This document shows, piece by piece, positions 32,750 to 48,778 of a DNA stretch of 64,000 nt (the stretch's first letter is position 1; each line of letters opens with the position of its first letter). Under the pieces are notes generated by a model. It searched no databases. It saw only the letters and a program-made list of their open reading frames with translations, and was not told where the DNA came from. This DNA comes from Phreatobacter sp. Its GTDB lineage: Bacteria > Pseudomonadota > Alphaproteobacteria > Rhizobiales > Phreatobacteraceae. The position numbers and the translations under genes were made by a program. Where the stretch lies: the NCBI RefSeq assembly GCF_027532945.1, contig NZ_JAPZTZ010000009.1, positions 124,001-188,000 of the forward strand, read 5' to 3'.

Positions 32750-33582
32750 GACGACCGCGTGGCCATCAGCCAGATGGCCTTCGGGTTGGTGACGGCATAG
32801 CGCCAGAACAGGCGGCGCGGCTCCAGCCAGATGCGGAAGGCCCATTCGAGGGACGCCCGCTGCATCCAGTCCGGAGCCCGGCGGTTGGTGCCGGACAGGA
32901 AATTGAACAGGCCGCCCGAGGTCTTGATCATCCCGACATGGGTGAGCCGGTGGGCGAAGCGCGCCACGAAGCGCTGCTCATGCGGCACGCCCATGGCGAG
33001 CCAGAGGATGTCGGGCGCCAGCGCGTCGATCTCGGCGACCTTCGCCTCCAGCGCCTCGCCCTTCAGGAAACCGTGGTGATGACCGACCAGCCGCAGGCGC
33101 GGATAGGCGGCCCGGACATTGGCGACGGCCTTCTCGACCTCCTCGGGCGTGGCGCCAAGCAGGTAGAAGGTCGTGCCGCCGTCCTCGGCGCGGCGGGCAA
33201 CGTCATGGAACAGGTCGGTCGTGGCGACGCGCTCGGGCAGGGCCATGCGGCAGCGGTAGCGGGAGGCGAGGACGAGCGGCTGTCCGTCGGCAACGATCTG
33301 GTCGGCCATGCCGATCAGGCCGGCGAGCTCCGGATCGGATGAGGCTCGGGCGATCACCTCGCCATTGGCCGAGGTCAAGTAGAGCGGCCTGCGGCCACGC
33401 GGCCGCTCGCGCGCCGCACGGATCATCCAGTCGGCGGTCGCGGCCCGGTCGAGCACGGCGATGGGCAGGCCGCCGACCGTGACGGTCGGGATCGCGGCGA
33501 AGGCCTCATCGAAGGCCTCGGTCGCCGCGATGGGGGACGGCGCGCTCGGGGCGGTACCGGTTATCGCCATGGGACCGCTCAC
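32746..33582 (-). CDS. WecG/TagA/CpsF-type glycosyltransferase (GT26)
   Basis: 278 residues from a GTG start that overlaps the preceding stop; an ATG at 33570 is an alternative. GT26 signatures are clear: LYLTSANGEVIARASSDPELAGLIGMADQIVADGQPLV, YLLGATPEEVEKAVANVRAAYPRL and LWLAMGVPHEQRFVARF, GLFNFLSGTNRRAPDWMQRASLEWAFRIWLEP. These enzymes transfer ManNAc(A) or glucuronic-acid-type sugars to lipid-linked acceptors. It is embedded in the wzz / glycosyltransferase operon. Confidence 0.93.
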   Translation of the reverse strand: MSGPMAITGTAPSAPSPIAATEAFDEAFAAIPTVTVGGLPIAVLDRAATADWMIRAARERPRGRRPLYLTSANGEVIARASSDPELAGLIGMADQIVADGQPLVLASRYRCRMALPERVATTDLFHDVARRAEDGGTTFYLLGATPEEVEKAVANVRAAYPRLRLVGHHHGFLKGEALEAKVAEIDALAPDILWLAMGVPHEQRFVARFAHRLTHVGMIKTSGGLFNFLSGTNRRAPDWMQRASLEWAFRIWLEPRRLFWRYAVTNPKAIWLMATRSS

Positions 33583-35069
33583 TGGACGAGCCGGGCGAGC
33601 GGCGCACGGGTCACCGGCTCCGCGGCACGGCGACGGACGGGCGCCGGGCCGGCGCCACCGCGCAGCAGGGCGGCGAGGAGGGCGAGACCGACGCCGAGGC
33701 CGCCGCCGAGCACTTGGCCGGCCATTGCCATCACTACGCCGCGCGGCGGGAAGACACGATCCCGCGGCGGCTGGGCGACCGTGATGATGCGGGCATTGTT
33801 GGTGTCGACGCGCTCGAGCTCGCCCGTCTCGCGGGAGCGGGCGAGGAAGGCCTGGAGCAGGTTGCGGTTCACATCCACCTCGCGCTGCAACTCGCGCAGC
33901 TGGACGAAGGCCTGGCCGGCATCGGAGGTCTGGCGCGACAGGTCGTCGACGAGACGCCGCTGGGCGGCCTCCGCCGAGCGGGCGCGGTCGAGCTCGGCCC
34001 GCGCGGCCTGGGCGATGCGGCCGAGTTCCTCGGTGATGGCGCGATCGAGGTCGGAGACCTGCGCCTGGGCGTTGCGAACGACGGGATGGCGCGGACCGAA
34101 CTCGGTCTGCACGTCGGCAAGGCGGCGGCGCGCCTCGGCCTGCTGGCCACGCAGCGCGGCGATCGTCGGCGAGAGCACCGCCTCGGGCAGGGCGCCGGCC
34201 TGGCTGGCGACGCGCAGCGACGCCTGGATCTGCTCCTGGCGTGCCTGTGCCTCCGAGACACGGGCCTGGGCCTGGGCGAGCTGGGTGTTGGCATCGGTCA
34301 GCTGCTGCTCGGAAACGAGCTGCGTGCGGGTGCCGAACAGGCCGTTGCGGCGGCGGAAATCCTCCACCCGCTCCTCGGCGCTCCGCACCCGGGTGCGCAG
34401 CTCGTCAAGACGGTTGGTGAGGGACTGCGTGGCGCGGCGGGCCGCATCGGCACGGGCGGCCGTCTGGCTGTCGATATAGGCGTGGGCGACGGCATTGGCG
34501 AGGCGCGCGGCCTTGTCCGGATCGGCGGCGCGGACGGTCACCTCAATAACGAAGGTGCGCTCGGGCCGGCGGACGATGACGCGGTCGTAAAGGGCGTTGA
34601 GGGCGAGCCGCTCGCGCTGCTCGAGGCTTTCCTCGCTCGTCCGACCCATGCCGAAGGACTTGAGCAGGCCGACGGCCCAGGACGCGCCGCCCTGGCCGTT
34701 GAACTCGGGATCTTCGGTCAGCCGCTCGCTGTCGATGACCCGCGACAGCACGCTCTGCGAGGTGACGATGCGCGCCTGGCTCTCGACAAAGTTGATGGCG
34801 GTGTTGGAATCCTGCTGGCGCGGGGTCAGCTCGTTGTCGAAGACCTGCAGGCCGCGGGGATCGACGAAGATCTGTGCCGTCGAGACGAAGCGCGGCGTCA
34901 TGACACGCGAGGCGCCGTAGGCGAGAACGCCGCCGATGACGGCGAGCAGCACGATGGCAAGCCAGTAGCGCATCACCTCGCCGATGAGGCCGGGAGACGC
35001 GGCGGCTGGCCGCGTGGCGGCTGCGGCAGGAGCGGGGGCGGGATTATCCGGACGACCGTCGTCATACAT
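33579..35069 (-). CDS. Wzz/GumC-type polysaccharide co-polymerase without kinase domain
   Basis: 496 residues. Two membrane helices flank a long periplasmic coiled coil: VMRYWLAIVLLAVIGGVLAYGASRVM (about 32-57) and VVMAMAGQVLGGGLGVGLALLAALL (about 446-470). The Wzz N-terminal pattern (RFVSTAQIFVDPRGLQV) and the proline-rich stretch before the second helix (QPPRDRVFPPRG) are present. There is no cytoplasmic Walker-type tyrosine-kinase domain, unlike ExoP-type proteins. It sets polysaccharide chain length. GGAG lies upstream of the ATG. Confidence 0.92.
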   Translation of the reverse strand: MYDDGRPDNPAPAPAAAATRPAAASPGLIGEVMRYWLAIVLLAVIGGVLAYGASRVMTPRFVSTAQIFVDPRGLQVFDNELTPRQQDSNTAINFVESQARIVTSQSVLSRVIDSERLTEDPEFNGQGGASWAVGLLKSFGMGRTSEESLEQRERLALNALYDRVIVRRPERTFVIEVTVRAADPDKAARLANAVAHAYIDSQTAARADAARRATQSLTNRLDELRTRVRSAEERVEDFRRRNGLFGTRTQLVSEQQLTDANTQLAQAQARVSEAQARQEQIQASLRVASQAGALPEAVLSPTIAALRGQQAEARRRLADVQTEFGPRHPVVRNAQAQVSDLDRAITEELGRIAQAARAELDRARSAEAAQRRLVDDLSRQTSDAGQAFVQLRELQREVDVNRNLLQAFLARSRETGELERVDTNNARIITVAQPPRDRVFPPRGVVMAMAGQVLGGGLGVGLALLAALLRGGAGPAPVRRRAAEPVTRAPLARLVQ

Positions 35070-35188: not shown

Positions 35189-35995
35189 TCAGACGATGCC
35201 GCAGCGGTCGAGGGCCTCAGCCACCGGCATGATGGCGATACCCCGGTCGAGTGCGCCGGCGACCGTCGCCTCCAGGATCCGCGCTGTCGTGCCAAAGGGG
35301 GTCGGGGTATCGCAGACGTCGTGGGTGAATAGGACGAGCCAACCGCCGTCCCGCGCCAGCCGGTCGAGCCAGGCATCCATCGACACCGCCGCCAGCGACC
35401 GCTCGCTGATCTCAACCGACTTCAGGAAATCGAGGTCCGTGCGGCCCGCATTGATGCCGGCCATGACCGAGCGGCTCGCCCGCACGGTGCGCGACAGCCA
35501 GCGCTTCTGCGGCAGCCCGCAGATTCCATAGGGATAGGCGTAGGATTCATTGGACAGGCTGGGCACGAGCCGGCGCAAGGCTGCGCGATTGGCGGCGAGG
35601 TCTGCCGCGAAGTCGCCGGCCGTCATGGCCGCGGCCGGGCGATGGGCATGGCCGTGCAGCGCCATCTCGTGGCCGCGCGATGCGAGGTCCATCACCGCGT
35701 CCGCCCCCGCCACGGTCCACAGGTCGCTGTGGCGCTCGAACAGGCCGGAGGCCACGTAGAAGGTGCCGCGAACCCCGTGCGCCTCGAGAATGCGGCCGCC
35801 CTCGGTGCCGGCCGTGCGCGGAAAATCGTCGAAGGTGATGGACAGGATGGGCCTGTCGGGTCGGATGTCGCCGGTGCGGAAGGCGATGCGGCGGCCCACC
35901 GCGTGGTTGATCCGCGCGAGGAGCCCGCCATCGCGGGCCGATGTCGCATCGTCGGGGCCGATCGCCGCGGCTTGAGCCGCTGTTTGGACCGGCAT
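35189..35995 (-). CDS. Polysaccharide deacetylase (NodB-type)
   Basis: 268 residues from the ATG at 35995. NodB-homology domain of carbohydrate esterase family 4: motif 1 TFDDF (Asp56, Asp57) and motif 2 with metal ligands His114 and His118 (LHGHAHRP), then YAYPYGICG and VLFTHDVCD for later motifs. No signal peptide is seen, so it may act in the cytoplasm on precursors, or the start lies elsewhere. It heads the leftward deacetylase-wzz-GT26-GT operon and probably removes acetyl groups from the EPS. Confidence 0.9.
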   Translation of the reverse strand: MPVQTAAQAAAIGPDDATSARDGGLLARINHAVGRRIAFRTGDIRPDRPILSITFDDFPRTAGTEGGRILEAHGVRGTFYVASGLFERHSDLWTVAGADAVMDLASRGHEMALHGHAHRPAAAMTAGDFAADLAANRAALRRLVPSLSNESYAYPYGICGLPQKRWLSRTVRASRSVMAGINAGRTDLDFLKSVEISERSLAAVSMDAWLDRLARDGGWLVLFTHDVCDTPTPFGTTARILEATVAGALDRGIAIMPVAEALDRCGIV

Positions 35996-36073
35996 CGTCG
36001 GGTGTCCTTGCGTCAAATTGAAATCCCTCGCCCAGAGGCCGTGAGCGCATCTGACCTGTTTTCGCACAGTTTA

Positions 36074-36237: not shown

Positions 36238-37233
36238 ATGTCCCGCGACGAGACGTCCACCACGCCGCCCGCTGCCCCGGTGCGCAGCCCGCTCCTCGAT
36301 GCCGCCGCCGTGCGCGCCGTCGTCGTCGTGCCAACCTTCCGGCGGCCAGTGATGTTGGATGAGACACTGGCCTCGCTGGCTGCTCAGCGCACGGCGCGCG
36401 CATTCGCGGTCGTGGTGGTGGAGAACGAGGCCGTCGGCCGCGAGGGCCTGGCCGTCGCCGGCCGCTGGCTTGCCGGCGGTTCCCTGGAAGGCGAGGCCAT
36501 CGTTGAGACGGCGCAGGGCAATGTCCACGCGATCAATGCTGGCTTCGCCCACGCCCTCGCCAGCTTCCCGGGCGCGACCCATATCCTGATGATGGATGAC
36601 GACGAGGTCGCGACTCCCGACTGGCTGGACCTGATGGTCGCCGCGGCCGAGCGCGAGGATGCCGATGTCGTCGGCGGGCCGGTTGTGCCGCGTTTCCGCG
36701 CCGAAGCACCGTCCGTGCTCCGCCATCATCCCGTCTTCTGGCCGAGCCATCATCGTACCGGCCCGGTGCCGATGATCTATGGCACCGGCAATTGCCTGAT
36801 GCATCGCCGTGTCTTCGAGCGCCTTGGCGCCAAACCACTCGACACACGGTTCAACTTCCTCGGCGGCGGTGACATGGACTTCTTCACCCGCTGCCGCCTC
36901 GCGGGCTTCCGCTCCTGGTGGGTGGAGGAGGCGCTGATCACCGAGACGGTGCCGGCCGAGCGTGCCCGGATCGCCTGGGTGTTGAAGCGCGGCCTGCGCA
37001 TCGGCTCGATCAACCGCGCCGTCGACCTGAAGCGGGCCGGCGAGGCCGGCCGCTGGAAGATCCTCGCCAAGGACGTCGCCATCGTGCCGCTGGCCTTCGC
37101 CCGCGCCACGCTCACGCTGCTGCGCACCGGCAATCCGGTGGTTGCCGCCCATCCGCTCGCCGTGTCGGCGGGGCGGATCGGAGCCTGGTTCGGGGTCGAG
37201 CAGCAGCCCTACAAGGCCGGAGCCACCACGTGA
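36238..37233 (+). CDS. Family 2 glycosyltransferase
   Basis: 331 residues. GT-A fold with VVVVPTFRRPVMLDETLASLAAQ at the nucleotide-sugar site, the DxD motif in ILMMDDDEVATPDWL, and FNFLGGGDMDFFTRCRLAGF near the acceptor region (ED-like motif). Soluble or membrane-associated through the C-terminal hydrophobic stretch. First gene of the rightward GT2 - ligase - GT4 operon; its stop overlaps the next GTG start (GTGA). I use 36238 because the residues before it are not homologous to GT2 proteins. Confidence 0.92.
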   Translation: MSRDETSTTPPAAPVRSPLLDAAAVRAVVVVPTFRRPVMLDETLASLAAQRTARAFAVVVVENEAVGREGLAVAGRWLAGGSLEGEAIVETAQGNVHAINAGFAHALASFPGATHILMMDDDEVATPDWLDLMVAAAEREDADVVGGPVVPRFRAEAPSVLRHHPVFWPSHHRTGPVPMIYGTGNCLMHRRVFERLGAKPLDTRFNFLGGGDMDFFTRCRLAGFRSWWVEEALITETVPAERARIAWVLKRGLRIGSINRAVDLKRAGEAGRWKILAKDVAIVPLAFARATLTLLRTGNPVVAAHPLAVSAGRIGAWFGVEQQPYKAGATT

Positions 37234-38543
37234 GCGTCCTGTCCAGCCCCCGGCTCATCCGCCTGCCGACGGAGGACCTAGCCGAGTTGATGCGCTGGGG
37301 CCGCCTGGCGGTCTTTGCCGGCACGCTGCTCCTCGCCTGGATTACGCTTGAGCCTTTCGCCGACCTGACGAGCACCGATGTGCTCGAACTCGCCACCGGC
37401 CGCGACGGCGCCACCTATCTCGCCTATGGCCTGCTCGCGGCAGCCGGCATGGCCATCGTGCTGCTGACCCAGCCGCGGCTGCTGGCGAGCCTTCTCCATC
37501 CGCTGTGGATCCTGCTCGGTGCCTGGCTCTGCGTGACCGTCGTCACATCGGCCGATCCGAACCTGTCGATGAAGCGGCTGATCCTCTTCTTCCTGCTGGC
37601 CCTTCTGTGCGCGACGTTGTTCCTGATGCCGCGCGGGCGCAAGCAACTGGCGCTCTTGCTCGTGGTCGCGGCGGGCGTGGTCACCGCGCTCTCGCTGGTC
37701 GGCGTGGCGCTGATGCCGGAACTCTCCATTCACCAGGCAACGGATGTGGGCGAGCCGCAGCTCGCCGGTGACTGGCGCGGCATCTTCGCCCACAAGAACA
37801 CCACCGGCGCCATCTTCGCGATGATCATCTTCATGATGATCTTCGCCATCCGTGCCGGCTATGCCGTCGCAGCTGGACCGATTCTCGCGGCCTCCGTGCT
37901 GATCGTCGCCATGTCGGGTGCCAAGAGCTCCACCATGCTCTTTGTCGGCGCCATGCTCATCGCCATCCTGGTCCAGCGGATCCGCAGCGGATTCATCGTC
38001 GGCACCATCGCTTTCGCTCCGCTTGTCGTGCTGTCGGTGCTTGGCCCCGGTTCCGTGGTCAGCGACGCGATCGCAGGCGTGGTGCAGAAGCTTCCCTTCG
38101 ATGCGACCTTCACCGGGCGCGCCGACATCTGGGAACTGGCCCTCGAGAAGATCGCCGAACGGCCGCTGACCGGCTGGGGCTATCAGGCCTACTGGGCGCT
38201 GGAGAGCACCCGGTTCGGCCAGGAGGACACCACCCAGTGGGCCGGCCACGCCGCCCATGCGCATAACGGCTATATCGATGCGGCGCTCAATATGGGCCTG
38301 CCCGGCCTCGCCCTGACGCTCATCGTCTTCGTCATCATGCCGCTGCGCAACTATCTGGCCGCCCGTCGCGGCGGCGCGGATCCCGCACTGCTGCTCATGC
38401 TCATGCAGATCTGGCTGTTCGGCGTCTACCTGTCGGTGATGGAGAGCTTCATGTACCTGCGCTTCCATCCGACCTGGATCACCTTCCTCTTCGCGGTCTT
38501 CGGCCTGCACTATCTCGCGAGGCGGCCGCATGTCGCGTCCTGA
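37230..38543 (+). CDS. Wzy/O-antigen ligase-type membrane protein
   Basis: 437 residues from a GTG start overlapping the GT2 stop. About 11 membrane helices. The Wzy_C signature region is visible: FTGRADIWELALEKIAERPLTGWGYQAYW, then AHAHNGYIDAALNMGLPGLAL with the His expected in the periplasmic loop. It should polymerise EPS repeat units or ligate the polysaccharide; the two functions cannot be told apart by sequence. Confidence 0.9.
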   Translation: MSVLSSPRLIRLPTEDLAELMRWGRLAVFAGTLLLAWITLEPFADLTSTDVLELATGRDGATYLAYGLLAAAGMAIVLLTQPRLLASLLHPLWILLGAWLCVTVVTSADPNLSMKRLILFFLLALLCATLFLMPRGRKQLALLLVVAAGVVTALSLVGVALMPELSIHQATDVGEPQLAGDWRGIFAHKNTTGAIFAMIIFMMIFAIRAGYAVAAGPILAASVLIVAMSGAKSSTMLFVGAMLIAILVQRIRSGFIVGTIAFAPLVVLSVLGPGSVVSDAIAGVVQKLPFDATFTGRADIWELALEKIAERPLTGWGYQAYWALESTRFGQEDTTQWAGHAAHAHNGYIDAALNMGLPGLALTLIVFVIMPLRNYLAARRGGADPALLLMLMQIWLFGVYLSVMESFMYLRFHPTWITFLFAVFGLHYLARRPHVAS

Positions 38544-39591
38544 CGCGCCGGCCCGGCTGGACGTCCTTGTCTCCGAGACGGCCGCGCCCTGCGGCGTCGA
38601 GGCGTTTGCCCGCCGCCTCGCGGCGACCGCCGGCGACCGCGCCGCAACGCGCCCGCTTGGCACCGAACCGCCGGCGGAGGCCGGCGTGCTGGTGCTGAAC
38701 CTGCCTGTGGTCGCCTGGAAGAAGCGCCTCGTGGAGCCGATCACGGCTGCGGGGCGGGCTCGCGCTGCCGGTCGCCCGGTGCTCATCGTGCTGCATGAAT
38801 GGGCCGATCTCGACTGGAAGCGGCGGGCGAGCTACGCGCCGCTGCTGCCGCTGGCCTCCGCGATTCTGTTCTCCTCGCCCGAGGTTGCCGCGCAATTCGC
38901 CGCAAGCCCGCAATCCCGCCTCGCGCCGAAGCGGCGTGGCATCGTGCCCATTCCGCCGAACGTCATCCTGCCCGAGCACCTGCCCGAGACGGAACTGAGC
39001 CGGCTCATGGCCGCCGAGCGCCACCGTGGCCGGCTTGTGCTTGGCCATTTCGGCTCGATCTATCCGCGCAAGCAATCGGCCCAGATCCTCGACCTGACGG
39101 CGACGCTGGTCCAACGCGGGGCCGACCCCTTCGCCATCTTCCTTGGCTCCTTCGTCAAGGGGCAGGACGACGTGGAAGGCGATTTCCGCGCCCGCGCCAG
39201 GGCCCTCGGCGTCGAGGATCGAATCCATGTCAGCGGCTATATCGCCGATGACGCCGACCTCTTCGCCGCTTTCGCCGAAGTCGACGTCTTCGCCTATCTC
39301 TTCGCCGAAGGCCTCACCAGCCGGCGCGGCAGTGTCCTGGCCTGCGCCATGTCCGGCCGTCCGGTGGTCGTGAACGCGCCGGAGACGGCGGGGGCCTTCG
39401 ACCACCACCCGACCTATCGTCGTCTGCTCGACGAGGGGCGGCTGAGGCTGGTTCCAACCCATGCCGGGCTCCATGAGGTCGCCGAGGCCATCGAGGCCGC
39501 CGCCGCTGCGCCACGCTCGCCGGGCCAGCTTGATGTCGAGAGCGCCTGGCGCGATGCGCTCGCGGCCCTCGACGCGGTTCTCGCCGCCTGA
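38530..39591 (+). CDS. GT4-type glycosyltransferase
   Basis: 353 residues, overlapping the previous gene by 14 bp. GT-B fold: the C-terminal domain has LVLGHFGSIYPRKQ, DRIHVSGYIADDADLFAAFAEVDVF and the donor-site Glu in ADEGLTSRRGSVLACAMSGRPVV-like AEGLTSRRGSVLACAMSGRPVV. Near the N-terminus the acceptor domain is short and divergent. Last gene of the rightward EPS operon, followed by a terminator. Confidence 0.87.
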   Translation: MSRPDAPARLDVLVSETAAPCGVEAFARRLAATAGDRAATRPLGTEPPAEAGVLVLNLPVVAWKKRLVEPITAAGRARAAGRPVLIVLHEWADLDWKRRASYAPLLPLASAILFSSPEVAAQFAASPQSRLAPKRRGIVPIPPNVILPEHLPETELSRLMAAERHRGRLVLGHFGSIYPRKQSAQILDLTATLVQRGADPFAIFLGSFVKGQDDVEGDFRARARALGVEDRIHVSGYIADDADLFAAFAEVDVFAYLFAEGLTSRRGSVLACAMSGRPVVVNAPETAGAFDHHPTYRRLLDEGRLRLVPTHAGLHEVAEAIEAAAAAPRSPGQLDVESAWRDALAALDAVLAA

Positions 39592-39618: not shown

Positions 39619-39648
39619 AAGGCCGCGGATTGCTCCGCGGCCTTTTTC
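39619..39648 (+). terminator. Terminator after the GT4 gene
   Basis: AAGGCCGCGG (39619-39628), loop ATTGCT, perfect complement CCGCGGCCTT (39635-39644), followed by three more T residues. Confidence 0.85.
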
Positions 39649-39670
39649 GGTCGGCGCTGGCCACGAACCT

Positions 39671-41113
39671 TCAGAAGGCATTGTCGTAGGCTTTGCGTGA
39701 GAAGACCGTGCGGAACAGGATCTCGATGTCGAGCAGGATCGACCAGTTGTCGATGTAGAACAGGTCGTGCTCGACGCGCGCCTTCATCTTGGCGTCAGTG
39801 TCGGTCTCGCCGCGCAGGCCATGGACCTGCGCCCAGCCGGTGATGCCCGGCTTGACGTTGTGGCGACGGGCATAGAGGGCGATGCGCTCGTCGAACTCGC
39901 GGTCATGGGCGATGGCGTGGGGACGCGGTCCCACCAGCGACATCTGCCCGGCCAGCACATTGAGCAGCTGCGGCAGCTCGTCGAGATTCCAGCGGCGCAG
40001 CACGCGGCCGACGCGGGTCACGCGCTGGTCGTTGCGGGTGGCCTGACGCACCACGTCGCCGTCGTCCATGACGGTCATGGTGCGGAACTTCACGATCTGG
40101 AACTCGCGCTGGTTGAAGCCGAGGCGGCGCTGGCGGAACAGCACCGGGCCGGGGCTGTCCAGCTTGATGGCGAGGGCGATGAGCATCAGCACCGGCGTGA
40201 ACATGAACAGGGCGAAGGAGCCGAGCGCGAGGTCGAGGGCGCGCTTCAGCGTCACCTCGCCGGCCGTCAGCGGCGACCGGCCGAGCTGCAGGCTGGCGAT
40301 GCCGCCGGCCTTGGCGATGTGGATGTCCTGGAAGCGGTCGAAGATGCGCTCGGGGCCGAGATGGATGGTCACCGGGATGCGCATGAACCCATCGACCAGC
40401 CGGTCAATCGTCTCGGTCTCCGACCAGGGCACGATGATCAGCACGTCGTCGAGCTGCATGTCGCGCGCCTGGCTGGCGATGCGGGCAATGTCGTCGCGGC
40501 TGACCGGGCCGCCGGCGGGGGCGAGCAGGCCCGTGCCAGCGATGTGCATGCCGGCATTCCACGGCTGGTAGCGCATGGCGAAGGCGGTCACGTCCTCCTC
40601 GCGGCCGACCAGCATGACCCGGCGCGCCGGGATGATGCCGATCTTCGAGCCGAGGGTCATCATCCGGCGGGCCGCGCCGCGGGCGATGAAGATGGCCGGC
40701 AGGCCGAGGACGAAGCTGAGCGTGACCGCGACACGCGAGAAGTTCTCGGTGGTCTTGGTGGCGAATGCGAAGGCGATGAGAATGACGAAGGTGGCGCTCC
40801 AGAGGGTCAGCGTCGTGCCGAAATCGCGGCGCACGCCGACATAATGGCCGATCTGGTACTGGCCGCGTACGGCATTGAGCAGCACGAAGGTGCTGGCCAG
40901 CACCGCCGCGAGCGCAACTTGCGACTGCGAGGTCCACCATTCGCCGCTCGATGCGCGGGCATAGAGGACGGAGATCAGGAAGGAAGCGCCGGCGATGACC
41001 ATCCAGTCGATGGCGCCGGTGGCGAGTTTGAGCGCGAACCGCGTCCAGGCATAGCCGCCACGGTTGCGGCGGGTGATGGCGCCTGCGGCGAGATCCAGTT
41101 CCTTCAGCGTCAT
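39671..41113 (-). CDS. WcaJ-type undecaprenyl-phosphate sugar phosphotransferase
   Basis: 480 residues from the ATG at 41113. It starts EPS synthesis by moving a hexose-1-phosphate onto undecaprenyl phosphate. Four to five membrane helices fill the N-terminal half with a CoA-binding-like domain (RRVMLVGREEDV). The catalytic C-terminal domain is typical of the polyprenyl glycosylphosphotransferases: KRALDLALGSFALFMFTPVLMLIALAIKLDSPGPVLFRQRRLG, FRTM, NLDELPQLLNVLAGQMSLVGPRPH and GITGWAQVHGLRG. It lies 82 bp behind the double-hydrolase gene and is probably the last gene of the carrier-protein operon. Confidence 0.95.
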   Translation of the reverse strand: MTLKELDLAAGAITRRNRGGYAWTRFALKLATGAIDWMVIAGASFLISVLYARASSGEWWTSQSQVALAAVLASTFVLLNAVRGQYQIGHYVGVRRDFGTTLTLWSATFVILIAFAFATKTTENFSRVAVTLSFVLGLPAIFIARGAARRMMTLGSKIGIIPARRVMLVGREEDVTAFAMRYQPWNAGMHIAGTGLLAPAGGPVSRDDIARIASQARDMQLDDVLIIVPWSETETIDRLVDGFMRIPVTIHLGPERIFDRFQDIHIAKAGGIASLQLGRSPLTAGEVTLKRALDLALGSFALFMFTPVLMLIALAIKLDSPGPVLFRQRRLGFNQREFQIVKFRTMTVMDDGDVVRQATRNDQRVTRVGRVLRRWNLDELPQLLNVLAGQMSLVGPRPHAIAHDREFDERIALYARRHNVKPGITGWAQVHGLRGETDTDAKMKARVEHDLFYIDNWSILLDIEILFRTVFSRKAYDNAF

Positions 41114-41195
41114 GGCGAGGTGCCTCGTGCCATTCTGCGGCAGCTCTGTCCCGGGCGGGGACGCTGTCGCAGGGTCGCACTGATCCTTGCAGGCC

Positions 41196-42920
41196 TCATG
41201 CCGCGTCGCTCCCTCGCGCCATCCCGCGTCGCCTGACGAGGGCACTGACGCGGTCCACGACGGTCCGCCGCGCCTGCGGCGGCGTCATGTCGTGGTCCGC
41301 CGCCGGCACCACCGTGATCGGTGGAATGCCCTGGCGGAGGAGCCAGCGTCCGCCGCTGCCGAAATGCAGGGAGAGATCGCCAAGCCCGGCGTCGTTCTCC
41401 GAGAAGATGAGGTCCATTGCGACACGCCGTTGTGACAGCGCGCGCATGAGCAGGCGCGCCTGCCGCGTCTGCTCGGAGGGGCGGATCGCGGCGACACGCT
41501 GGCCGATCCGCCGGCTGAACTCGCGGACGAGGGGCAGGACCTTGCGCTCGCCGGTGAGGATGCGCTTCCAGGCGCGCGCCTCGAACACCTTGCCGGCATA
41601 GCTGGAGGCTAGCGGATAGGCCGAGGCGATGGCCTCCTCGACGGTCTCGCCGGGACGCCAGACGAAGCGCTGGATGTTGACGAGGATCAGCCCGCTGATG
41701 CGCGGGTCGGCCGCAGCATGGTTAAGGGCGAGATAGGCGCCGGAGCAGGCGCCGAGCATCGTCAGCTCGCCATAGCCTCGGGCGGCGATCAGGTCGACGC
41801 CGTCGGTGACCTGGCTCGCATTGGCGGGGTGGTAGAGGACGGCGTCCACCGTGTCAGGGGCGCCCGGCCTGTCGCGGCCATCGCCGATGCCGGCGAGGTC
41901 CATGCGCAGCGAAGCGACGCCCTGGGCGGCGAGTTCGCGCGCCAGAAGCACGCCGGAGCGGGCCCAGCCGACATGCGAATTGCGGCCGGCATTGACGATG
42001 ATGAGGGCCGGCTGGCCCTCGGCGGGCACATTCGGCTCGCACAGGACGCCGAACAGCCGCCCGGCCTCGCCGAAGACGACGGCTTCCTCGGTGAAGCCCG
42101 GACCGGAGAGGCGCGCCGGCTCGAGCGGTTCGGCCGGGCGCAGCGTCCGGGCCGGAAGGGTGTCGAGCCAATCGCCCGCGCGCGCGATCACCTCATGCGG
42201 CGTCGTCGCCATGGTCGGGCTCAGCGAGATCGCCTCGAAGCCGCTGACGGGTTCGATAGCGAGGTCCTGGCGCGCCGGCCAGCTCGTCGCCAGCGACGTG
42301 GCGTCGGCGGCGCCGGGCCGGTGGAGGACCAGCGTCGGCACGGCAGGCGGCACCTGCCGTCCAAGATCGACGGTGCGGATCGCCGCCAGGGTCTCGTTGG
42401 TGGTGGTCAGGCCGGCAATGAGCAGCCCGTCCTCGGTTGCCGTGGCGTCGGGATCGAGGCGTGCGCCCTCGGCGAGGGCGCGGGCGGTCAGGGCGAGTTC
42501 GCGCGCATAGACGCGTCCCTTGACCACGGGATCGAGCAGCATCAGGCCGGCGAAGCTCTCACAGCCCGTGGCCGCAAGCGTCGCGATGGCCGCACCGAAA
42601 CGCAGCCCGCCCATCACGATGCCTGAGGCACCGCCCTTTGCGACGAGGAAAGAGGCGGCTGCGCGCGCAGCACCCACCCACGCATCGAGGCGTCCGGGAT
42701 CCGAGTCGGAGCCGAGCGAATCCGCCGTGCCCGGCAGGTCGAAGCAGAGCACCGCATGGCCCCGTTCGGCGAGGCTTTCCGCGAGGATCCGCAGGCTCTT
42801 CGTGGCGGCCAGCGCTTCGACGCCATGCGGCGGCACCAGGACGACGCCAAGGCCCGAGGCGCGGGAGGCGTCGGGTCGGTGCAGTTTGCCGAGGAGCCCG
42901 TTGAAGGTGACCGGAATCAT
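41196..42920 (-). CDS. Tandem alpha/beta-hydrolase protein with altered nucleophiles
   Basis: 574 residues forming two consecutive alpha/beta-hydrolase units. Unit 1 (about 1-255): VVLVPPHGVEAL as oxyanion strand, then the nucleophile elbow G-L-R107-F-G, where Arg replaces Ser. Unit 2 (about 275-574): IIVNAGRNSHVGWARSGVLLA, then the elbow G-A-C392-S-G with a Cys nucleophile, followed by Asp510 (FSENDAG) and His543 (PAADHDMTP). Unit 1 therefore looks catalytically dead and unit 2 a Cys-type hydrolase or acyltransferase, as in dienelactone hydrolases and the hydrolases linked to exosortase clusters. The ATGA overlap couples it to the GH2 gene. Confidence 0.88.
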   Translation of the reverse strand: MIPVTFNGLLGKLHRPDASRASGLGVVLVPPHGVEALAATKSLRILAESLAERGHAVLCFDLPGTADSLGSDSDPGRLDAWVGAARAAASFLVAKGGASGIVMGGLRFGAAIATLAATGCESFAGLMLLDPVVKGRVYARELALTARALAEGARLDPDATATEDGLLIAGLTTTNETLAAIRTVDLGRQVPPAVPTLVLHRPGAADATSLATSWPARQDLAIEPVSGFEAISLSPTMATTPHEVIARAGDWLDTLPARTLRPAEPLEPARLSGPGFTEEAVVFGEAGRLFGVLCEPNVPAEGQPALIIVNAGRNSHVGWARSGVLLARELAAQGVASLRMDLAGIGDGRDRPGAPDTVDAVLYHPANASQVTDGVDLIAARGYGELTMLGACSGAYLALNHAAADPRISGLILVNIQRFVWRPGETVEEAIASAYPLASSYAGKVFEARAWKRILTGERKVLPLVREFSRRIGQRVAAIRPSEQTRQARLLMRALSQRRVAMDLIFSENDAGLGDLSLHFGSGGRWLLRQGIPPITVVPAADHDMTPPQARRTVVDRVSALVRRRGMARGSDAA

Positions 42921-45382
42921 GCGGCGTGCTCGTAGGCGACGGGATGGCTGTTGAGGGCCGTGACCCGGCCCCCCGTGGCGGCGGGCGAGCCATGCCGCCG
43001 CACCAGCGGCACGACGCGGGTCTCGCCGGGGGCGAGGCAGAAGCCCTCGTCGGTCGCGCGGAAGGCCGGGTCCTCGACGGTGACGGCATGGGCGAAACGG
43101 TCGGCGACGAGGACGAGCGCTAGGCCGGCTTCGCCATGGACAGCCTTGGCCGAGAGGCCGATCTCGCCGGGTGCGACGGCGCAGCCCGGCAGGACATGGC
43201 TCGCCTCGGCGAGAAGCTCTCCCGTCGACGGGTCGTGAAGCCGGGCGAGCGTCGCCCCATGCGCGCGAGGCCCGAAACGGTAGGCATGCGCGACATCGAA
43301 GAAGCGACCGAAAAGCGCGTGGCTCGACAGGCTGATGGCCTCACCGGCGGCGAGCGTCAGGTCGCGTTCGGCACGGGCGAGGGGATGGGGGCCCTCGCCA
43401 TAGGACGCCAGTGTCAGCCGCACCGCGCGCGTCTCGCGCGTCTCGTTGACGAGGTGGACGCCGAGACCGTTCAGCCCCTCATCGGTGAGGCCGAGATGCA
43501 GCGGACGGAAGGCACGGCGCAGGGCGTGCCATGTCGATTTTGGCTCACCCAGCTGGTCGATGAGGCCCCAGCCCGCGCCCGGCTTCATGTCGGCGAGGAG
43601 CCAGACGAGGCCACCCCGGCAGCGCGATCCGGCCCGGCGCCACTCGGCGAAGACGGCCTCCATGAGGATGGCGGGAGCGGCGCGGCCGAGCGCCAGCCAG
43701 CGTTCCGGGTCCGATGCGCGCAACGTCGCCGGATCGACGCCGAAGAGCGTACCGACATAATGGTCGCGGACGTCCTCGAAATCCCAGTCGGCGCCGGCAT
43801 CGCGCGGCACACCGGAGGACCAACGGGCCGTATCGGCGGGATCCATGCCCTGGAGGGCCAGGGAAGTGGCGGAGGGAACGGCCGCGAAGGCGAGGCATTC
43901 GGAGGCGAAGCGCACATCCGACCGACGCGCATCCTCGATGGGGCGGCGATAGGCGCCGACGCCGAAATAGTGGGTCACGCCGGCATCGGTGACGAAGGGC
44001 AGGGCGCCCCCCCAGGGCGTATGCGGGACATAGGCCGCCTGCGGCGCAAGATCAGCGACGAGCTCCGGCAGGCGCGCCTCGAAAAAGGGCATGGCGGCCT
44101 GATCGGGCTTGAGGCCAAGCATGGTCGCCTGCTGCGCCATCTCGCTGCCGCCACACACGACGGCCAGCGACGGCGAGCCCGCGAGCCGGCCAAGGAGATG
44201 CTGCACCTCCGCCTCGACTAGGGCGCGAAACGCCGGATCCTCGGTCGGATAGTCGAAATTCGCGAAGGGCAGGTCGTGCCAGACCAGCAGGCCCAGCTCG
44301 TCGCAGGCCGAATGGAACGCCAGGCTCTCCGGTCCCATTGTGCCGGAGAGGCGGATCATGGTCATGCCGGCATCGCGGGCGAGTTTCAGCAGCGGCCGCG
44401 GATCGGCGACGCCCGGCGCTGCCGGGTCCGGCGGTGTCCACGACGCGCCGCGGCAGAAGACCGGCACGCCGTTGATGACGAGGCCGAAGCCCTGGCCATC
44501 GGGACTGCGATCGACGGCGAGCGTCCGGAAACCGACGCAGCCCTCATCGATGATGCGACCACCGATGCGAAGCTGCACGCCATGCATCGCAGGCTCGCCA
44601 AGGCCGTTCGGCCACCACGGCGCCACATCGGCAACCAGCAGCCGGCCCGCATGGGCGTTGTCGTCGCCCGGATGCAGCGCCTCGGAACGGCCGGCACACA
44701 GCACCTCGACCGCGCTGTCCACGGGCCGGTCGAAAGTCACCGCGACATCGAGCACACCGTCGCCACCCACAAGCTGCGCATGGAGCCTCAGCGACACCAG
44801 GCGCGCGGCACCGGTCTCCGGCAATACAAGGACATCCTGCCAAGGACCGATCACCGCGACCTCCGGCGACCAGCCGGGCATGTGGCCGAGCGTGGTTGTG
44901 CGGATGAGCCGCAGCGTGCCGGGCTGGATCATCATCGGGCGCCAGCGGGCCCGCGGGCCCTTGGCCGCGCCAAGAACCGGGTTCAGCGCCGGGAAACGGA
45001 TGGCGATGGCATGGCGACCGGCCGGGCAGGCGATAACGGTCGGCACATACATGGACGCGATGGTCGCGGCCGGAACACCGTCAAGGAAGATCTCCGCAGG
45101 CGCGGTCAGCCCCTCGAACCGGATCGTCGCCGGTGCATCGAGAACGACGTCGCGGCGATACCAGACATCGAGGTCATGCAGCCCGGAGGCAGTGCCAGGC
45201 GAAAGGCGTCCTGCGGCGATCAACGCCTGCTCGGCCGTGCCGGGGACAGCGGCTGCGATCCAGTCGGCTGCTGCCGCAAGGCCCTCGGGTGTCGTCGCCG
45301 ATCCTGCCGCAACGACCGCCATGAGCCAGTCCGCGGCGAGCGGCACGGCGGGCGCGTGCGTGTCGTGGCGAACCGGATCCAT
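42917..45382 (-). CDS. GH2 beta-mannosidase-like glycosidase
   Basis: 821 residues. Beta-mannosidase domain plan: sugar-binding jelly roll (about 20-190), immunoglobulin-like domain, then the TIM barrel from about 300 (VINGVPVFCRGASWTPPD). The acid/base Glu414 is in CGGSEMAQQ and the probable nucleophile Glu495 in RFASECLAF. No signal peptide, so it acts in the cytoplasm or its export is unusual. In the middle of a carrier-protein/EPS operon it may act on lipid-linked sugars or on a glycoside made by the cluster. Coupled to the downstream hydrolase by ATGA. Confidence 0.88.
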   Translation of the reverse strand: MDPVRHDTHAPAVPLAADWLMAVVAAGSATTPEGLAAAADWIAAAVPGTAEQALIAAGRLSPGTASGLHDLDVWYRRDVVLDAPATIRFEGLTAPAEIFLDGVPAATIASMYVPTVIACPAGRHAIAIRFPALNPVLGAAKGPRARWRPMMIQPGTLRLIRTTTLGHMPGWSPEVAVIGPWQDVLVLPETGAARLVSLRLHAQLVGGDGVLDVAVTFDRPVDSAVEVLCAGRSEALHPGDDNAHAGRLLVADVAPWWPNGLGEPAMHGVQLRIGGRIIDEGCVGFRTLAVDRSPDGQGFGLVINGVPVFCRGASWTPPDPAAPGVADPRPLLKLARDAGMTMIRLSGTMGPESLAFHSACDELGLLVWHDLPFANFDYPTEDPAFRALVEAEVQHLLGRLAGSPSLAVVCGGSEMAQQATMLGLKPDQAAMPFFEARLPELVADLAPQAAYVPHTPWGGALPFVTDAGVTHYFGVGAYRRPIEDARRSDVRFASECLAFAAVPSATSLALQGMDPADTARWSSGVPRDAGADWDFEDVRDHYVGTLFGVDPATLRASDPERWLALGRAAPAILMEAVFAEWRRAGSRCRGGLVWLLADMKPGAGWGLIDQLGEPKSTWHALRRAFRPLHLGLTDEGLNGLGVHLVNETRETRAVRLTLASYGEGPHPLARAERDLTLAAGEAISLSSHALFGRFFDVAHAYRFGPRAHGATLARLHDPSTGELLAEASHVLPGCAVAPGEIGLSAKAVHGEAGLALVLVADRFAHAVTVEDPAFRATDEGFCLAPGETRVVPLVRRHGSPAATGGRVTALNSHPVAYEHAA

Positions 45383-45389
45383 GGGGTCC

Positions 45390-46403
45390 TCAGGAGGCGG
45401 CGCGCACCAGCGGCCGCGTCTCGGCTGCGGGGAAGCGGAAGGCCGCCGCGAGGCTCTCCATGAGGGCGTCGTAATGGTCGGCGACCTCGGCCAGAGCCGG
45501 GGCGAGCGCGTCGTATTTCTTGCGCGCCAGCGCCCGCGCCAGCAGGAACTGGAAGGTCTTCATCCCGTTCGCCATGGCCGCGCAGCGCGCGATGGCAGGA
45601 TCGAGGCCGGCTACGCCCTGCCGCCCGAGCCAGCCGAGATGGGCGCCGAGCAGGGCGATGTTGGCGCCGAACTGACGGGCCGAGTTGAAGGCATAGGGGT
45701 GGAACGAGCAGGGCGGCTGCGTCGCCAGCCAGGCAAGATCGGACGGCAGGGCTTCCGCATAGGCGCGCACCGGGTTGCGCGTCGGTCGGCGCGCCCAGTG
45801 CCCGGCGAGGCGGGCGAGAGCGGCCTCCTTCAGCGCCCGGCCGGAGAGGCCCGGGCCTGCGATCTTCACGAACTCGGTATAGGGCGGCAGCACCGGTGTC
45901 GGCACGGAGCCAAAGCCGAGGGCCTGCTCGACATCCTCGCCCGCCATCTCGAAGTAGCCGGCATTGTGGAAATAGCCGAGGCTCGCCGTGGCGCGGTCGA
46001 AGCGGTTGACCGCGATCGTCGTCTTCGAATGGTCGACCCGATAGGTCACGCCCTTGGTGTCCGGCAGGAAATGCGCGTCGACCTCGACGAGCACCAGCCG
46101 GCCGCGGGCGACCTGCTCCTCGATGTGATCGACCAGCGGCCGGTAGATCGACAGCTCCTGCAGGTCGAGGCCGAACAGGCTGTCGAGATCGCCGTTCGGC
46201 ATCTTGAAGAAGGTGAACTGGTCGCCCTCGAAATCCTGCGCCAGCGTCATGCCCAGCCCCGCCTCCGGCTCGCGGCCGAGGGCGTGGAGGACCTCGATGA
46301 GGAGGTCGGTGTGGCAGTTGGTCTCCGGCCAGGCCACGGCCGCGTCATGCAGCGCATGACGGGCGTGGGTGGCGGCGGTGAGATGGGGCAGGACGGCCTT
46401 CAT
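45390..46403 (-). CDS. DUF1839 protein, BtrH-like fold candidate
   Basis: 337 residues of the DUF1839 family, which is regularly found next to amino acid:carrier-protein ligases. Near the N-terminus Cys30-His31 (NCHTDLLIEVLHALG) is followed by VLVEVDAHFLPDT (Asp109, His111) and RVDHSKTTIAV (His125). Cys - VD-x-x-x-LP - His order matches BtrH, the papain-like enzyme that moves an amino-acyl group from a carrier protein to an antibiotic. I infer, not more, that this protein is the aminoacyl transferase of the cluster. The C-terminal half is helical. It lies 4 bp behind the ligase gene. Confidence 0.88.
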   Translation of the reverse strand: MKAVLPHLTAATHARHALHDAAVAWPETNCHTDLLIEVLHALGREPEAGLGMTLAQDFEGDQFTFFKMPNGDLDSLFGLDLQELSIYRPLVDHIEEQVARGRLVLVEVDAHFLPDTKGVTYRVDHSKTTIAVNRFDRATASLGYFHNAGYFEMAGEDVEQALGFGSVPTPVLPPYTEFVKIAGPGLSGRALKEAALARLAGHWARRPTRNPVRAYAEALPSDLAWLATQPPCSFHPYAFNSARQFGANIALLGAHLGWLGRQGVAGLDPAIARCAAMANGMKTFQFLLARALARKKYDALAPALAEVADHYDALMESLAAAFRFPAAETRPLVRAAS

Positions 46404-46407
46404 GGGA

Positions 46408-47325
46408 TCACAGGCCCAGCGTCTGGCGCAGCGAGGCCGGCCAGCGCTTCACATTCGTGCCGTAGTGCTTGAGCAGGGCGAGGATCACCCGCTCGTGGCC
46501 GAAGCCGACACAGGCCGTGTGCGCCACTTCGCCATCGGACGTGGTGAGGCCGAAGGTCTTGCCGAAATGGTCCTGGTGATAGTTGAAGGAGAGGCAGGCC
46601 GTGGGCTTCTCCTCGCTCTCGATGGCGATGAGCAGCTCGAACTTCAGCCGCTGGTCACGCTGGTTGACCGCCAGCATCTTCCCCGTCCGGCCGAAGAAGG
46701 GATCGTTGGCGACATCGACGGTGAACGGCAGGCCGAGCTCGCCGATCAGCGCCTGGCCGCGCTCGAGCCAGGAGGCGCGGAACTCGGTCACCTGGTCCGG
46801 GGTGCCCATGCGCACATATTCGCGCATGCGGAAGAACTGCTGGCGCGCCGGGTCCTGCGAGGGCTCGTGGCGGAAGCAGTAGGAGAGCAGGTCGAACAGG
46901 CGGCCCTCGGCGGGCAAGTCGCCGCGCTTGGCCGCCGTCGGATAGAGCGGATAGCAGGCGGCCGGCGTCAGCACGATCTCGCTGGCCTTCTGGCCGGCCG
47001 TCCAGTCGCCGCCCTGTTCGATGGTCTGCAGCAGGCTGACATGGTCGGCCGGGTTGCCGCAGAAGCAGTGCACCGTGCCGGCGAGCTGCGGGAAGCTCTT
47101 CATGTAGCCGGACTTCTCGAAGATCGAGCGGGCCATGGCCGGCGGGAAGCGCACGACCTCGGCCTCGTCGGCGGCGCCGTAGCGGCTGACGAGGGCCTGG
47201 AAGCCGTCGCCAATGGCCTCGAACAGGCCAGAGCGGCCATAGAGGCCGTCCACGCCGGTCTCGATCAGCAGGCCCTGGTCGAACAGGTCGTCGAGGAACG
47301 TCTTGGTCTCGGTCTTGTCGAGCAT
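46408..47325 (-). CDS. Amino acid:carrier-protein ligase (class II aaRS-like)
   Basis: 305 residues, start at 47325 (MLDKTET). Homologue of the SerRS-like enzymes from Bradyrhizobium and Agrobacterium that lack the tRNA-binding domain and charge a carrier protein with glycine or alanine. The class II core is visible: motif 2 region [12 protein letters not shown] with a Glu (169), and motif 3 [16 protein letters not shown] (Cys272, Arg279). Together with Cys124 (TPAACYPLY) these give the Cys/Glu/Cys zinc set of the family. There is no N-terminal tRNA-binding arm. It stands between the acyl-CoA-dehydrogenase-like gene (4 bp) and DUF1839. Confidence 0.93.
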
Positions 47326-47329
47326 CGCG

Positions 47330-48523
47330 TCAGTCCTCCAGGTCGGTGTCGAGGCGCGACATGAGGAGCATGGTCGCGGTGTTTGAAAGGATGCGGTCAT
47401 TGGCGATCATCAGCGGCGCCGACAGGATGTCGCGCAGCTGGCGGCCGATGGAGAAGGGATTGGCGTTCTTGTAGCCCTGGATGCCGACGATGGTCAGCGC
47501 CTCCTGGACCAGGGCGACGGCGCGGCGCGAGGCCTCGACCTTCACGGCGTTCATCGCCACCGCGAAGGCCATCGAGTTGATGGCCGCGTCGTCGTGGCGG
47601 GCGGCCTCGAAGCGGGCGATGCCGTCACGCACCAGGGTCTTAAGGCCGGCGAGTTCTGCGGCGGCAGCTGCAAGGCGCGCGGCGCCCGGCGGCACCGCAT
47701 TCGGCATGCGGCGGGCGGCCTGGCGGACGCTCGCCTGCGCCTTCGACAGCGCCGAACCGGCGATGCCGAACCAGAGAGCGGCCCAGAACAGGTGCGAGCT
47801 CGCCAGCATGGACTGCGCGGCGATCTCGGCGAAGGGCTTGGGGAAGACCTGCTCGGCGGGCACGGTCGCAGCCAGCTTGAAGCCGTGCGAGGTGGTGCCG
47901 CGCATGCCGAGCGTGTCCCAGGTCGAGGTCTGTTCGAGGCTCGCCTGATGCTTCTCGATGACGACCATGACCTGGTCGGACGAGGCGGCGTCGGGCGCCC
48001 GGCGGGCGGTCGCGAGGATCGCGTCGGCATCGAGGCCGTAGGAGATGACGGTCGCGTCCTTCTCGATGCGGACATTGTCGCCATCGGGCACGATGGAGCA
48101 GATGGAGTTGCGCAGATCGCCGCCAATGCCGGCCTCGGTCGTCGCCGAGCCGAGCAGGAGCTGCTTCTCAGCCACCTTCTGCATGAAGGCACGATGCCAG
48201 TCGCTGTCGAGCCCGTGATGGACGAGGCTCGACGCCTTGATCTGGTGCATGGCGAAGACCATGCCGGAGGCCGAGCAGGCCGCACCCAGCGTGGTGCAGA
48301 TCTGCGCGATATCGGCGAAGTCAGCGCCTTCACCGCCGAGATGGGCCGGAATCATGATGCCGAGGAGGCGCTCCTCGCGCATGGCGTCGACCGCCTCGCG
48401 GGGAAAGCGGGGGTCGCGGTCCACCGCATCCGCATGCGCGGCGGCGACGGTCGCGACGCGCTTGGCGCGGGCGATGAGGGCCGCGGTGCGCGGGGTGGCA
48501 TCGGGTTCCGACCGGTCCAGCAT
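47330..48523 (-). CDS. Acyl-CoA-dehydrogenase-like flavoprotein
   Basis: 397 residues with the acyl-CoA dehydrogenase fold: [24 protein letters not shown] (N-terminal helical domain), [15 protein letters not shown] (flavin-binding strand, usually TEPxxGSD), [15 protein letters not shown] and a C-terminal helical domain ending [22 protein letters not shown]. The usual TEPGAGSD is replaced by TEAGIGGDL, so the substrate site differs. Related proteins accompany aa:carrier-protein ligases and may oxidise the carrier-bound amino acid, as ACAD-like enzymes do to prolyl carriers in pyrrole synthesis. It lies 3 bp behind the carrier gene. Confidence 0.9.
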
Positions 48524-48526
48524 GGC

Positions 48527-48778
48527 TCAGGCTCCGACCTTCTCGCCCTTCAGCTCTTCGAGAGCGGCAGTGATCGAGGCGATGGAGGAGAAAAGCCGGC
48601 GGTTCAGCATCCGCTCGGGGAATTCGATGTCGAAGGCTTCCTCCAGCGCCAGCATGAGCTGGACGGAGCCGAAGGAGGTCATCCCGGCCTCGTAGAGGTC
48701 GCTGGCGTCGACGAGACCGTCCACGCCGCCCGGCAGCTCCACCGTGCGGGCGATGATCTCTCTGACCTGACTGTTCAT
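48527..48778 (-). CDS. Acyl carrier protein of the aa:CP ligase system
   Basis: 83 residues, acidic and four-helical. The phosphopantetheine site is Ser35 in AGMTSFGSVQLML, matching the D-S-L pattern of carrier proteins with Thr-Ser-Phe. Helix 2-like ALEEAFDIEFPERMLN and the terminal SSIASITAALEEL are typical. AGGAG lies 9 nt upstream of the ATG at 48778. First gene of the operon running to 39671. It needs a phosphopantetheinyl transferase from elsewhere. Confidence 0.93.
   Translation of the reverse strand: MNSQVREIIARTVELPGGVDGLVDASDLYEAGMTSFGSVQLMLALEEAFDIEFPERMLNRRLFSSIASITAALEELKGEKVGA

Follow-up and report, generated by a model that had tools for sequence, protein, structure and literature searches.

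Among the closest described systems to the locus reported here is that of Iyer and Aravind, who, in a 2010 note in proof (PMC2922099), described the gene neighborhood of a paralogue of seryl-tRNA synthetase (SerRS), with Atu2574 as the example, and predicted the transfer of an amino acid to the amine of a sugar. Two such amino acid:[carrier protein] ligases, Bll0957 and Atu2573, and their carriers (PDB 3mey, 4h2w and 2jq4) have a description that, in the excerpt available (PMC9437257), covers the ligase and carrier only, and the literature searched contained no statement on the end product of these enzymes. Here, we analyzed a 64,000-nucleotide stretch (the window) of a 4.13-Mb Phreatobacter-like genome, in which ligase and carrier belong to a set of six genes, the others encoding an acyl-CoA-dehydrogenase-fold flavoenzyme, a DUF1839 protein, a glycosidase of glycoside hydrolase family 2 (GH2), and a tandem alpha/beta hydrolase. 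We estimate at roughly 0.6 the probability that these six proteins form one pathway adding an amino acid to the repeat unit of an exopolysaccharide (EPS).

The window displays the features of the 2010 neighborhood, namely an acyl carrier protein, a redox enzyme, a conserved protein of unknown function, a glycosidase, and linked saccharide genes, and it shares with that system the ligase and the predicted reaction. Atu2574 itself, judged by its description in the note in proof as a tightly linked conserved open reading frame (ORF), would be the DUF1839 protein. A preliminary description of the window had put forward a dedicated aminoacylation route for a polysaccharide as new; since Iyer and Aravind predicted essentially the same in 2010, the idea of sugar aminoacylation is not new. 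Their note is a prediction whose text, as far as excerpted here, leaves unnamed the tandem hydrolase, a Wzx/Wzy/WcaJ locus, papain-fold relatives, and statistics, all of which are present in our analysis. Within the literature searched, the new elements are a tandem hydrolase that co-occurs with the set, the catalytic residues of this hydrolase, statistics showing the EPS link across families, an ORF joining a flippase to the hydrolase, and a fold match of the CcbD type.

Together with the gene of a WcaJ-type undecaprenyl-phosphate sugar-1-phosphate transferase, the six genes form a run on the minus strand in the order carrier protein, flavoenzyme, ligase, DUF1839, GH2, tandem hydrolase, and WcaJ, with intergenic gaps, computed from the coordinates, of 3, 4, 4, 7, −4, and 82 bp. 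Re-deriving the coordinates bore out the place, order, strand, and spacing previously claimed for this seven-gene run, whose members may be co-transcribed. None of the three terminator-like sites found at 38400-49200 lies on the minus strand; chance expectation is also three, and the scan therefore says little. The nearest named loci belong to Phreatobacter metagenome-assembled genomes, with a best identity of 92% over the ligase.

The ligase gene (46408..47325 from its ATG; the longest ORF extends to 47400) encodes a SerRS-like protein that matched NF005479 with 492.3 bits, over the curated cut-off of 357, and the PDB entries 4h2w and 3mey (Bll0957) with E-values of 1.8e-98 and 4.1e-96. Residues Cys124, Glu169, and Cys272 (numbered from the ATG), which we take to be zinc ligands, had already been singled out in the preliminary description; they proved invariant in 125 alignment rows and line up with the Cys/Glu/Cys of Bll0957. 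The rows counted here and for the other gene families include close relatives. The cognate carrier gene lies two genes upstream (48527..48778) and encodes a protein of the PRK07081 family that matched PF00550 and NF005480 (102.7 bits, cut-off 72), with 4h2w_C and 2jq4 (Atu2571) as PDB relatives. Its predicted phosphopantetheine attachment residue, Ser35, likewise held up, being Ser in 107/107 rows. What the window has in common with Bll0957, Atu2573, and their carriers is the ligase family, the invariant Cys/Glu/Cys set, and the cognate carrier family; by analogy with the literature on such relatives, the ligase would charge the carrier with glycine or alanine.

In about 30 named loci, genes for EF-P, an EpmA-like class II synthetase (PF00152), and a radical SAM protein lie upstream of the carrier gene, approximately 2.7–4.5 kb before the ligase in L050, L057, L065–L067, L080, and other Rhizobium-like loci. 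The radical SAM gene is presumably EpmB-like, a name given by guess. The EpmA-like synthetase and the ligase represent two unusual synthetase paralogues close together in the Rhizobium-like loci.

The DUF1839 gene (45390..46403) matched PF08893 with 369.7 bits (cut-off 22.5; E 1.6e-110). A 2023 survey (PMC10318531, in excerpt) assigned the family to the papain-like superfamily, gave its triad as C(T/S)H, and guessed at acyl-CoA-dependent glycan processing. An AlphaFold2 (AF2) model of the window protein (pLDDT 87.1, pTM 0.88) was compared with the PDB using Foldseek: all 19 matches with E ≤0.001 were AziU3, CtaG, or CcbD chains, and ordinary papain-like proteins ranked behind, at E 0.019 and above. 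AziU3 was the best match (E 1.3e-9) and, like CtaG, ranked above CcbD, whose chains agreed in overall fold with the model at E 4.6e-5 to 5.6e-4, a probability of 1.00, and TM-scores of 0.50–0.57. In the lincosamide condensing enzymes CcbD and LmbD (PDB 7yn2, 9dkr), Cys catalysis couples an aminosugar with an amino acid delivered by a carrier; CcbD employs Cys-His-Glu, and carrier-bound proline is loaded on the Cys and then transferred to the amino group of a thiooctose (PMC12945683, in excerpt). CtaG is a peptidyl transferase acting between carrier-bound groups (PMC6772006, in excerpt).

Within the DUF1839 family, Cys30 is kept in 110/112 rows and His125 in 112/112. From the predicted fold and these residues, the protein is likely an aminoacyl-carrier-protein:aminosugar transferase, on which the aminoacyl group would first be bound to Cys30 and then, in a ping-pong reaction like that of CcbD, form an amide with the amino group of an aminosugar. 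The two rows without Cys30 are the core DUF1839 copies of G588 and G521, where a second copy keeps the Cys; the core copies carry Gln or Arg for the catalytic Cys (L230:9401-10378 and L230:14235-15494; L232, L239).

Several observations weigh against this assignment. The TM-scores of the model to AziU3, CtaG, and CcbD are moderate (0.50–0.64), a sequence profile search retrieved no AziU3, CtaG, or CcbD PDB chain up to E 10, and the Ser of the published triad is replaced by Ala (column 110) in 20 of the 112 rows, the window protein among them. AziU3, moreover, we take to be an azinomycin enzyme that is not amide-forming. CcbD and LmbD differ from DUF1839 in that no sequence similarity between them was found, that theirs is an antibiotic pathway, and that the C(T/S)H triad published for DUF1839 is placed differently from Cys-His-Glu. 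The nearest folds can also be read in another way, with the module making a small amino-acid-derived molecule (a signal, lipid, or peptide-like compound) outside the polysaccharide, DUF1839 forming its amide, and the EPS genes being mere frequent neighbors, perhaps co-regulated. AziU3 presumably comes from a small-molecule antibiotic pathway. Such an origin also applies to CcbD and CtaG (PMC12945683, PMC6772006, both in excerpt).

The flavoenzyme gene (47330..48523) matched PF02771 and PF00441 over their cut-offs and PF02770 below. At positions 243 and 373, which we take to correspond to the two usual catalytic Glu sites of known dehydrogenases, the family has Ser, Ala, Thr, or Cys and Ile or Val, respectively, with no acid at either position in 121 rows, and His244 is invariant. 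Judged by its sequence, the protein is probably not a classical dehydrogenase. Its PDB matches include DnmZ, a nitrososynthase, and DszC-type desulfurization enzymes; because of these matches and the lack of an acid at the base positions, oxygenation fits better than desaturation, and the enzyme would oxidize or hydroxylate the carrier-bound amino acid. Were it a true alpha,beta-dehydrogenase, its dehydroamino acid or imine product could be released as a keto acid, and the polysaccharide would not be the acceptor. The acyl-CoA dehydrogenase family call points that way, as does the best PDB match by sequence, 7p98, named as a short-chain acyl-CoA dehydrogenase and thus a point against our proposal; the NCBIfam matches also include prolyl-carrier-protein dehydrogenase, far under the cut-off (33.8 of 650 bits). 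We nevertheless regard this route as very improbable, given the missing Glu residues at the usual positions, the lack of a beta carbon in glycine, and a DUF1839 protein left without a role.

The GH2 glycosidase (42917..45382) is beta-mannosidase-like: PDB beta-mannosidases (2vjx and others) were matched with E 5.5e-36, and PF22666 scored 24.7 bits, below the cut-off of 27. Glu414 and Glu495, kept in 107/107 rows, are presumably catalytic, as judged by motif. The adjoining tandem hydrolase (41196..42920) pairs a hydr2-like N half with a hydr1-like C half and is, on sequence evidence, a fusion of two hydrolases named for exosortase A systems; it matched TIGR03101 with 74.3 bits (cut-off 202.75) and TIGR03100 with 116.1 bits (cut-off 168.45), both under the curated cut-offs. 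The fold matches of its AF2 model (pLDDT 86.3) are alpha/beta hydrolases. The nucleophile position of the N half is occupied by Arg107, and the C half carries Cys392-Asp510-His543, all three of which are kept in 94/94 rows; at the Arg107 column, the same 94 rows from the order have Gly (68) or Arg (26). In the proposed pathway, the Cys-nucleophile hydrolase and the mannosidase-like enzyme might act on the sugar unit before it is flipped, while it still faces the cytosol, by trimming, proofreading, or finishing it, and these are the weakest steps of the pathway.

The grouping of these genes was surveyed in 297 genomes from 122 genera of the order, with genus and order names inferred from named loci. 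The ligase exceeded its cut-off in 63 genomes; DUF1839 (PF08893) and relatives of the tandem hydrolase were each present in 48 genomes and 21/122 genera, and these two sets were identical and fell entirely inside the 63 ligase genomes. The line drawn for hydrolase presence is not arbitrary, since the weakest best-per-genome match had an E-value of 7.7e-51. One genus, g83, is mixed, with the ligase in all five genomes, DUF1839 and hydrolase together in two, and neither in three. The five-gene core was whole in 30/40 ligase-centered stretches fetched, and among the named loci (the best 80 of 487 named relatives), DUF1839 occurred in 77 and the whole core in 76. Gene calls in the relatives' loci, based on codon bias, are rough, and some of the ORFs overshoot the true genes. 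Of 398 genomes sampled across the phylum, 16 contained DUF1839, of which 12 belong to the order and 4 to one other family, f109; there the core was whole in 4/4 genomes, with hydrolase relatives in G588, G584, and G521 and none in the stretches fetched from G516. The grouping is more than chance.

A point against tying the ligase to the proposed pathway is that 15 of the 63 ligase genomes lack both DUF1839 and the hydrolase, so that the ligase has another use too. Ten of the 15 were fetched, and flavoenzyme and ligase were both present; the carrier protein model matched weakly (37–45 bits), on the opposite strand in eight, and gave no match in two. Loci such as L119, L133, L142, L145, and L146, among others, contain the ligase and flavoenzyme without DUF1839, GH2, and hydrolase and represent a second use of amino acid:[carrier protein] ligases. 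Genes that give the impression, from their sequence, of being sulfhydrylase-like lie near the ligase in L142 and L146.

We compared the 40 ligase-centered stretches (30 with DUF1839, 10 without) with 40 control stretches from the same genomes. Matches to a panel of EPS models at ≥100 bits were found in 13/30 core stretches, 3/10 without DUF1839, and 0/40 controls, and at ≥40 bits in 18/30, 4/10, and 1/40, respectively; on both comparisons of core with control stretches, a chance neighborhood was set aside. As the panel had been built partly from ligase flanks, independent Pfam models were run as well. The Wzz and WecG tests covered 43 of the 48 DUF1839 genomes (all except G227, G249, G263, G279, and G295), and their expected counts assume evenly placed genes and ignore kinship. 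Wzz (PF02706) occurred within 25 kb of the hydrolase in at least 30/43 genomes (expected 1.1) and within 25 kb of the ligase in at least 23/43 (expected 1.0). WecG (PF03808), in a parallel test, was near the hydrolase in 31/43 (expected 0.65), drawn from all nine families among the 43, and near the ligase in 22/43 (expected 0.6). Proximity of Wzz and WcaJ to the ligase was surveyed in 57 of the 63 ligase genomes (all except G106 and the five already named), which include 14 of the 15 without DUF1839; at least 4 of these 14 have Wzz within 25 kb of the ligase (expected 0.4).

The hydrolase lies within 20 kb of the ligase in 34/43 genomes. In the nine with a remote hydrolase, the Pfam Wzz model matched near the hydrolase in at least seven, and our own models placed EPS genes (≥40 bits) around one hydrolase copy in 9/9. 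In 22 loci, 20 of them named Rhizobium-like, a Wzx-like part and the hydrolase form a single ORF of approximately 1115 residues, and both parts were matched by curated models in L080, G023, and G281. With Wzz near the hydrolase or ligase far above expectation and WecG in agreement, the EPS link is general. A survey had been called for on whether the link is unique to this genome; according to Wzz, WecG, and the EPS panel, it is not, and the link is real. The earlier idea that the EPS unit is the acceptor stands as far as the general tie to EPS synthesis goes, with transfer to a sugar coming from structure prediction only and assigned to DUF1839, a role that the preliminary description did not contain.

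The link has exceptions, which count against the proposed pathway. Among the matches listed, Wzz was near neither anchor in 13/43 DUF1839 genomes; WecG was not found near the hydrolase in 12/43, and 17/30 core stretches had no EPS-panel match at ≥100 bits. The same was true of the second hydrolase copies in L197, L201, and L209 and of the hydrolase stretch of G203 (L203, truncated at a contig end). A five-gene core away from EPS genes in several genomes is also what a pathway to a small molecule would predict. That explanation has to account for the coincidence of hydrolase and DUF1839 presence (48/48), for the Wzz or WecG genes that most of the 43 genomes have near the hydrolase, even when it is remote from the core, for the fusion of hydrolase and flippase, and for a conserved GH2 glycosidase, which suits a sugar substrate; we consider it unlikely, though it is the strongest competitor to EPS decoration.

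A lipid-linked substrate is what the ORF joining flippase and hydrolase suggests, and in this respect the ORF also suits an aminoacyl group that goes to a lipid carrier or membrane glycolipid rather than to the EPS unit. Lipid aminoacylation by MprF-type enzymes and the Dlt system offer parallels, and the carrier protein is weakly DltC-like (NF003464, 30.6 bits, cut-off 68). The Dlt system, which D-alanylates teichoic acids, resembles the window in its activated amino acid, its carrier, and a surface polymer as acceptor; it differs in that no DltB/DltD-type transferase was called among the window proteins scanned and in that the window's host is Gram-negative. An MBOAT/MprF-type transferase was likewise not called among the proteins scanned, which represent part of the window genes, and DUF1839 resembles soluble carrier-dependent enzymes. 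A lipid acceptor therefore appears decidedly improbable to us. Should the EPS pathway hold, the ligases of the module would serve to decorate a surface sugar with an amino acid, with altered EPS charge, hydrogen bonding, adhesion, and biofilm as consequences, and the question is narrowed to one enzyme, DUF1839.

The amine that such a pathway needs is less well accounted for. The window contains an HfsH-like polysaccharide deacetylase gene (35189..36067, minus strand; PF01522; NF050820 with 155.4 bits, cut-off 400). In a scan of 34 of the 48 DUF1839 genomes, HfsH-like matches were obtained in 9/34 and lay near the module only in five genomes of the window's genus and in G087, and the deacetylase was rejected as a core member. 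This leaves the amine source unexplained in most genomes, a further difficulty for the pathway.

The WcaJ-type transferase (39671..41113 from its ATG; longest ORF to 41245) matched TIGR03023 with 425 bits (cut-off 410.75) and PF02397. It would start the repeat unit, which Wzx, Wzy, and Wzz would export and polymerize. The preliminary description had asked how often ligase and WcaJ genes are neighbors, and the answer is divided. WcaJ (PF02397) lies within 8 kb of the ligase in 9/9 genomes surveyed from the genus, the window's own included (three more genomes of the genus are outside the sample), and WcaJ-type genes lie near the carrier gene in 3/4 genomes of f109. In G588, the gene precedes the carrier gene by approximately 120 bp (Pfam E 1.2e-67), and the stretch also contains Wzc and ManC. 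Among the matches listed, in contrast, 0/34 other DUF1839 genomes have WcaJ within 20 kb of the ligase; G015, one of the genomes that lack DUF1839, has it at 15.9 kb. From its presence in the genus and in the unrelated f109, the adjacency probably arose more than once. With adjacency confined to these two groups among the matches listed, WcaJ was rejected as a general core member.

The remaining EPS genes of the window occupy the region beyond WcaJ. Genes for a GT4-type glycosyltransferase (38530..39591; PF13692 E 9.1e-5, below cut-off) and a protein of the Wzy-type polymerase/O-antigen ligase family (36918..38543; PF04932 E 1.2e-17) lie on the plus strand. The minus strand carries a Wzz/EPS transport chain-length protein (33579..35069; PF02706 and PF13807 over cut-off; TIGR01005 with 192.2 bits, cut-off 411.7) and a WecG/TagA/CpsF glycosyltransferase (32746..33582; PF03808 E 4.6e-52). 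An HfsF-like Wzx-type flippase is encoded on the plus strand (30015..31439; PF13440 over cut-off; NF050818 with 176.7 bits, cut-off 700), directly preceded by a GH10 xylanase-family gene (28792-30015, plus strand). A 452-residue ORF inside the locus (31487-32845, minus strand) had no Pfam or NCBIfam match; it has, to our eye, the look of a GT92-type glycosyltransferase.

The two hydrolases merged in the window are named for exosortase A systems, in which separate hydrolase genes and an acyl-activating ligase, TIGR03098, are found. That ligase is presumably of the adenylation type rather than SerRS-like. No exosortase (EpsH) or PEP-CTERM protein was called among the window proteins scanned, a search that did not extend genome-wide. 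TIGR03098 exceeded its cut-off in 28/398 phylum-sample genomes among the matches listed, and 19 such loci, defined by the TIGR03098 match and not by an exosortase, were fetched together with one near-cut-off locus of the window's genome. Hydrolase-model matches (E ≤1e-4) occurred in 15/19 loci, paired side by side in 10 and single in 5, and were lacking in L243, L246, L249, and L258. The ligase of the window's own genome (576.9 bits, cut-off 592.35; G000:C34:10888-12375, L261) has no hydrolase-model match in the 20 kb around it.

The separate hydrolases repeat the residue pattern of the tandem protein, Arg then Cys, near an acyl-activating ligase. In hydr1-type sequences, the Cys392 column holds Cys in 14/14 (counting G253), the Asp510 column Asp in 14/14, and the His543 column His in 8 and a gap in 6; the Arg107 column holds Arg in 10/12 sequences sorted as hydr2-type, the other two being missorted hydr1-type sequences. 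This Arg/Cys pattern is a feature seen in our analysis, with no published definition. G253 belongs to the ligase genomes that lack DUF1839; its hydr2 and hydr1 are encoded by two separate genes located behind one for an NRPS-like protein of 2050 residues (L240:11792-19808), which was recognized by reading its translation, with no domain scan; a WcaJ-like match lies in the adjacent stretch L241. The main text of the 2006 exosortase paper (PMC1569441) does not contain the words hydrolase, ligase, acyl carrier, or decarboxylase.

Across the window, TIGR03098, and G253 loci, the hydrolase pair is found beside three types of loading enzyme, which is a correlation. We tentatively suggest, as a possibility we still doubt, that an inactive half or partner and a Cys-nucleophile hydrolase make up a shared core of carrier-dependent EPS decoration, serving SerRS-like amino acid:[carrier protein] ligases, the exosortase-A-named ligase, and the NRPS-like protein (G253, L240). 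On this view, the window locus and the exosortase EPS loci would share one mechanism for producing polysaccharides decorated with aminoacyl or acyl-amide groups, and the end product of the amino acid:[carrier protein] ligases would be an EPS aminosugar amide. The Cys hydrolase is in any case named here as a co-occurring partner, and it may open a way to understand the hydrolases and the ligase that take their names from exosortase loci.

On the other side of the run, a VUPS-GGDEF diguanylate cyclase gene (49103-50563, plus strand) is divergent from the carrier gene, with its start about 325 bp away. Related genes occupy the same place in two of the nearest relatives (L032, L034), and the locus may be tied to c-di-GMP control through this cyclase.

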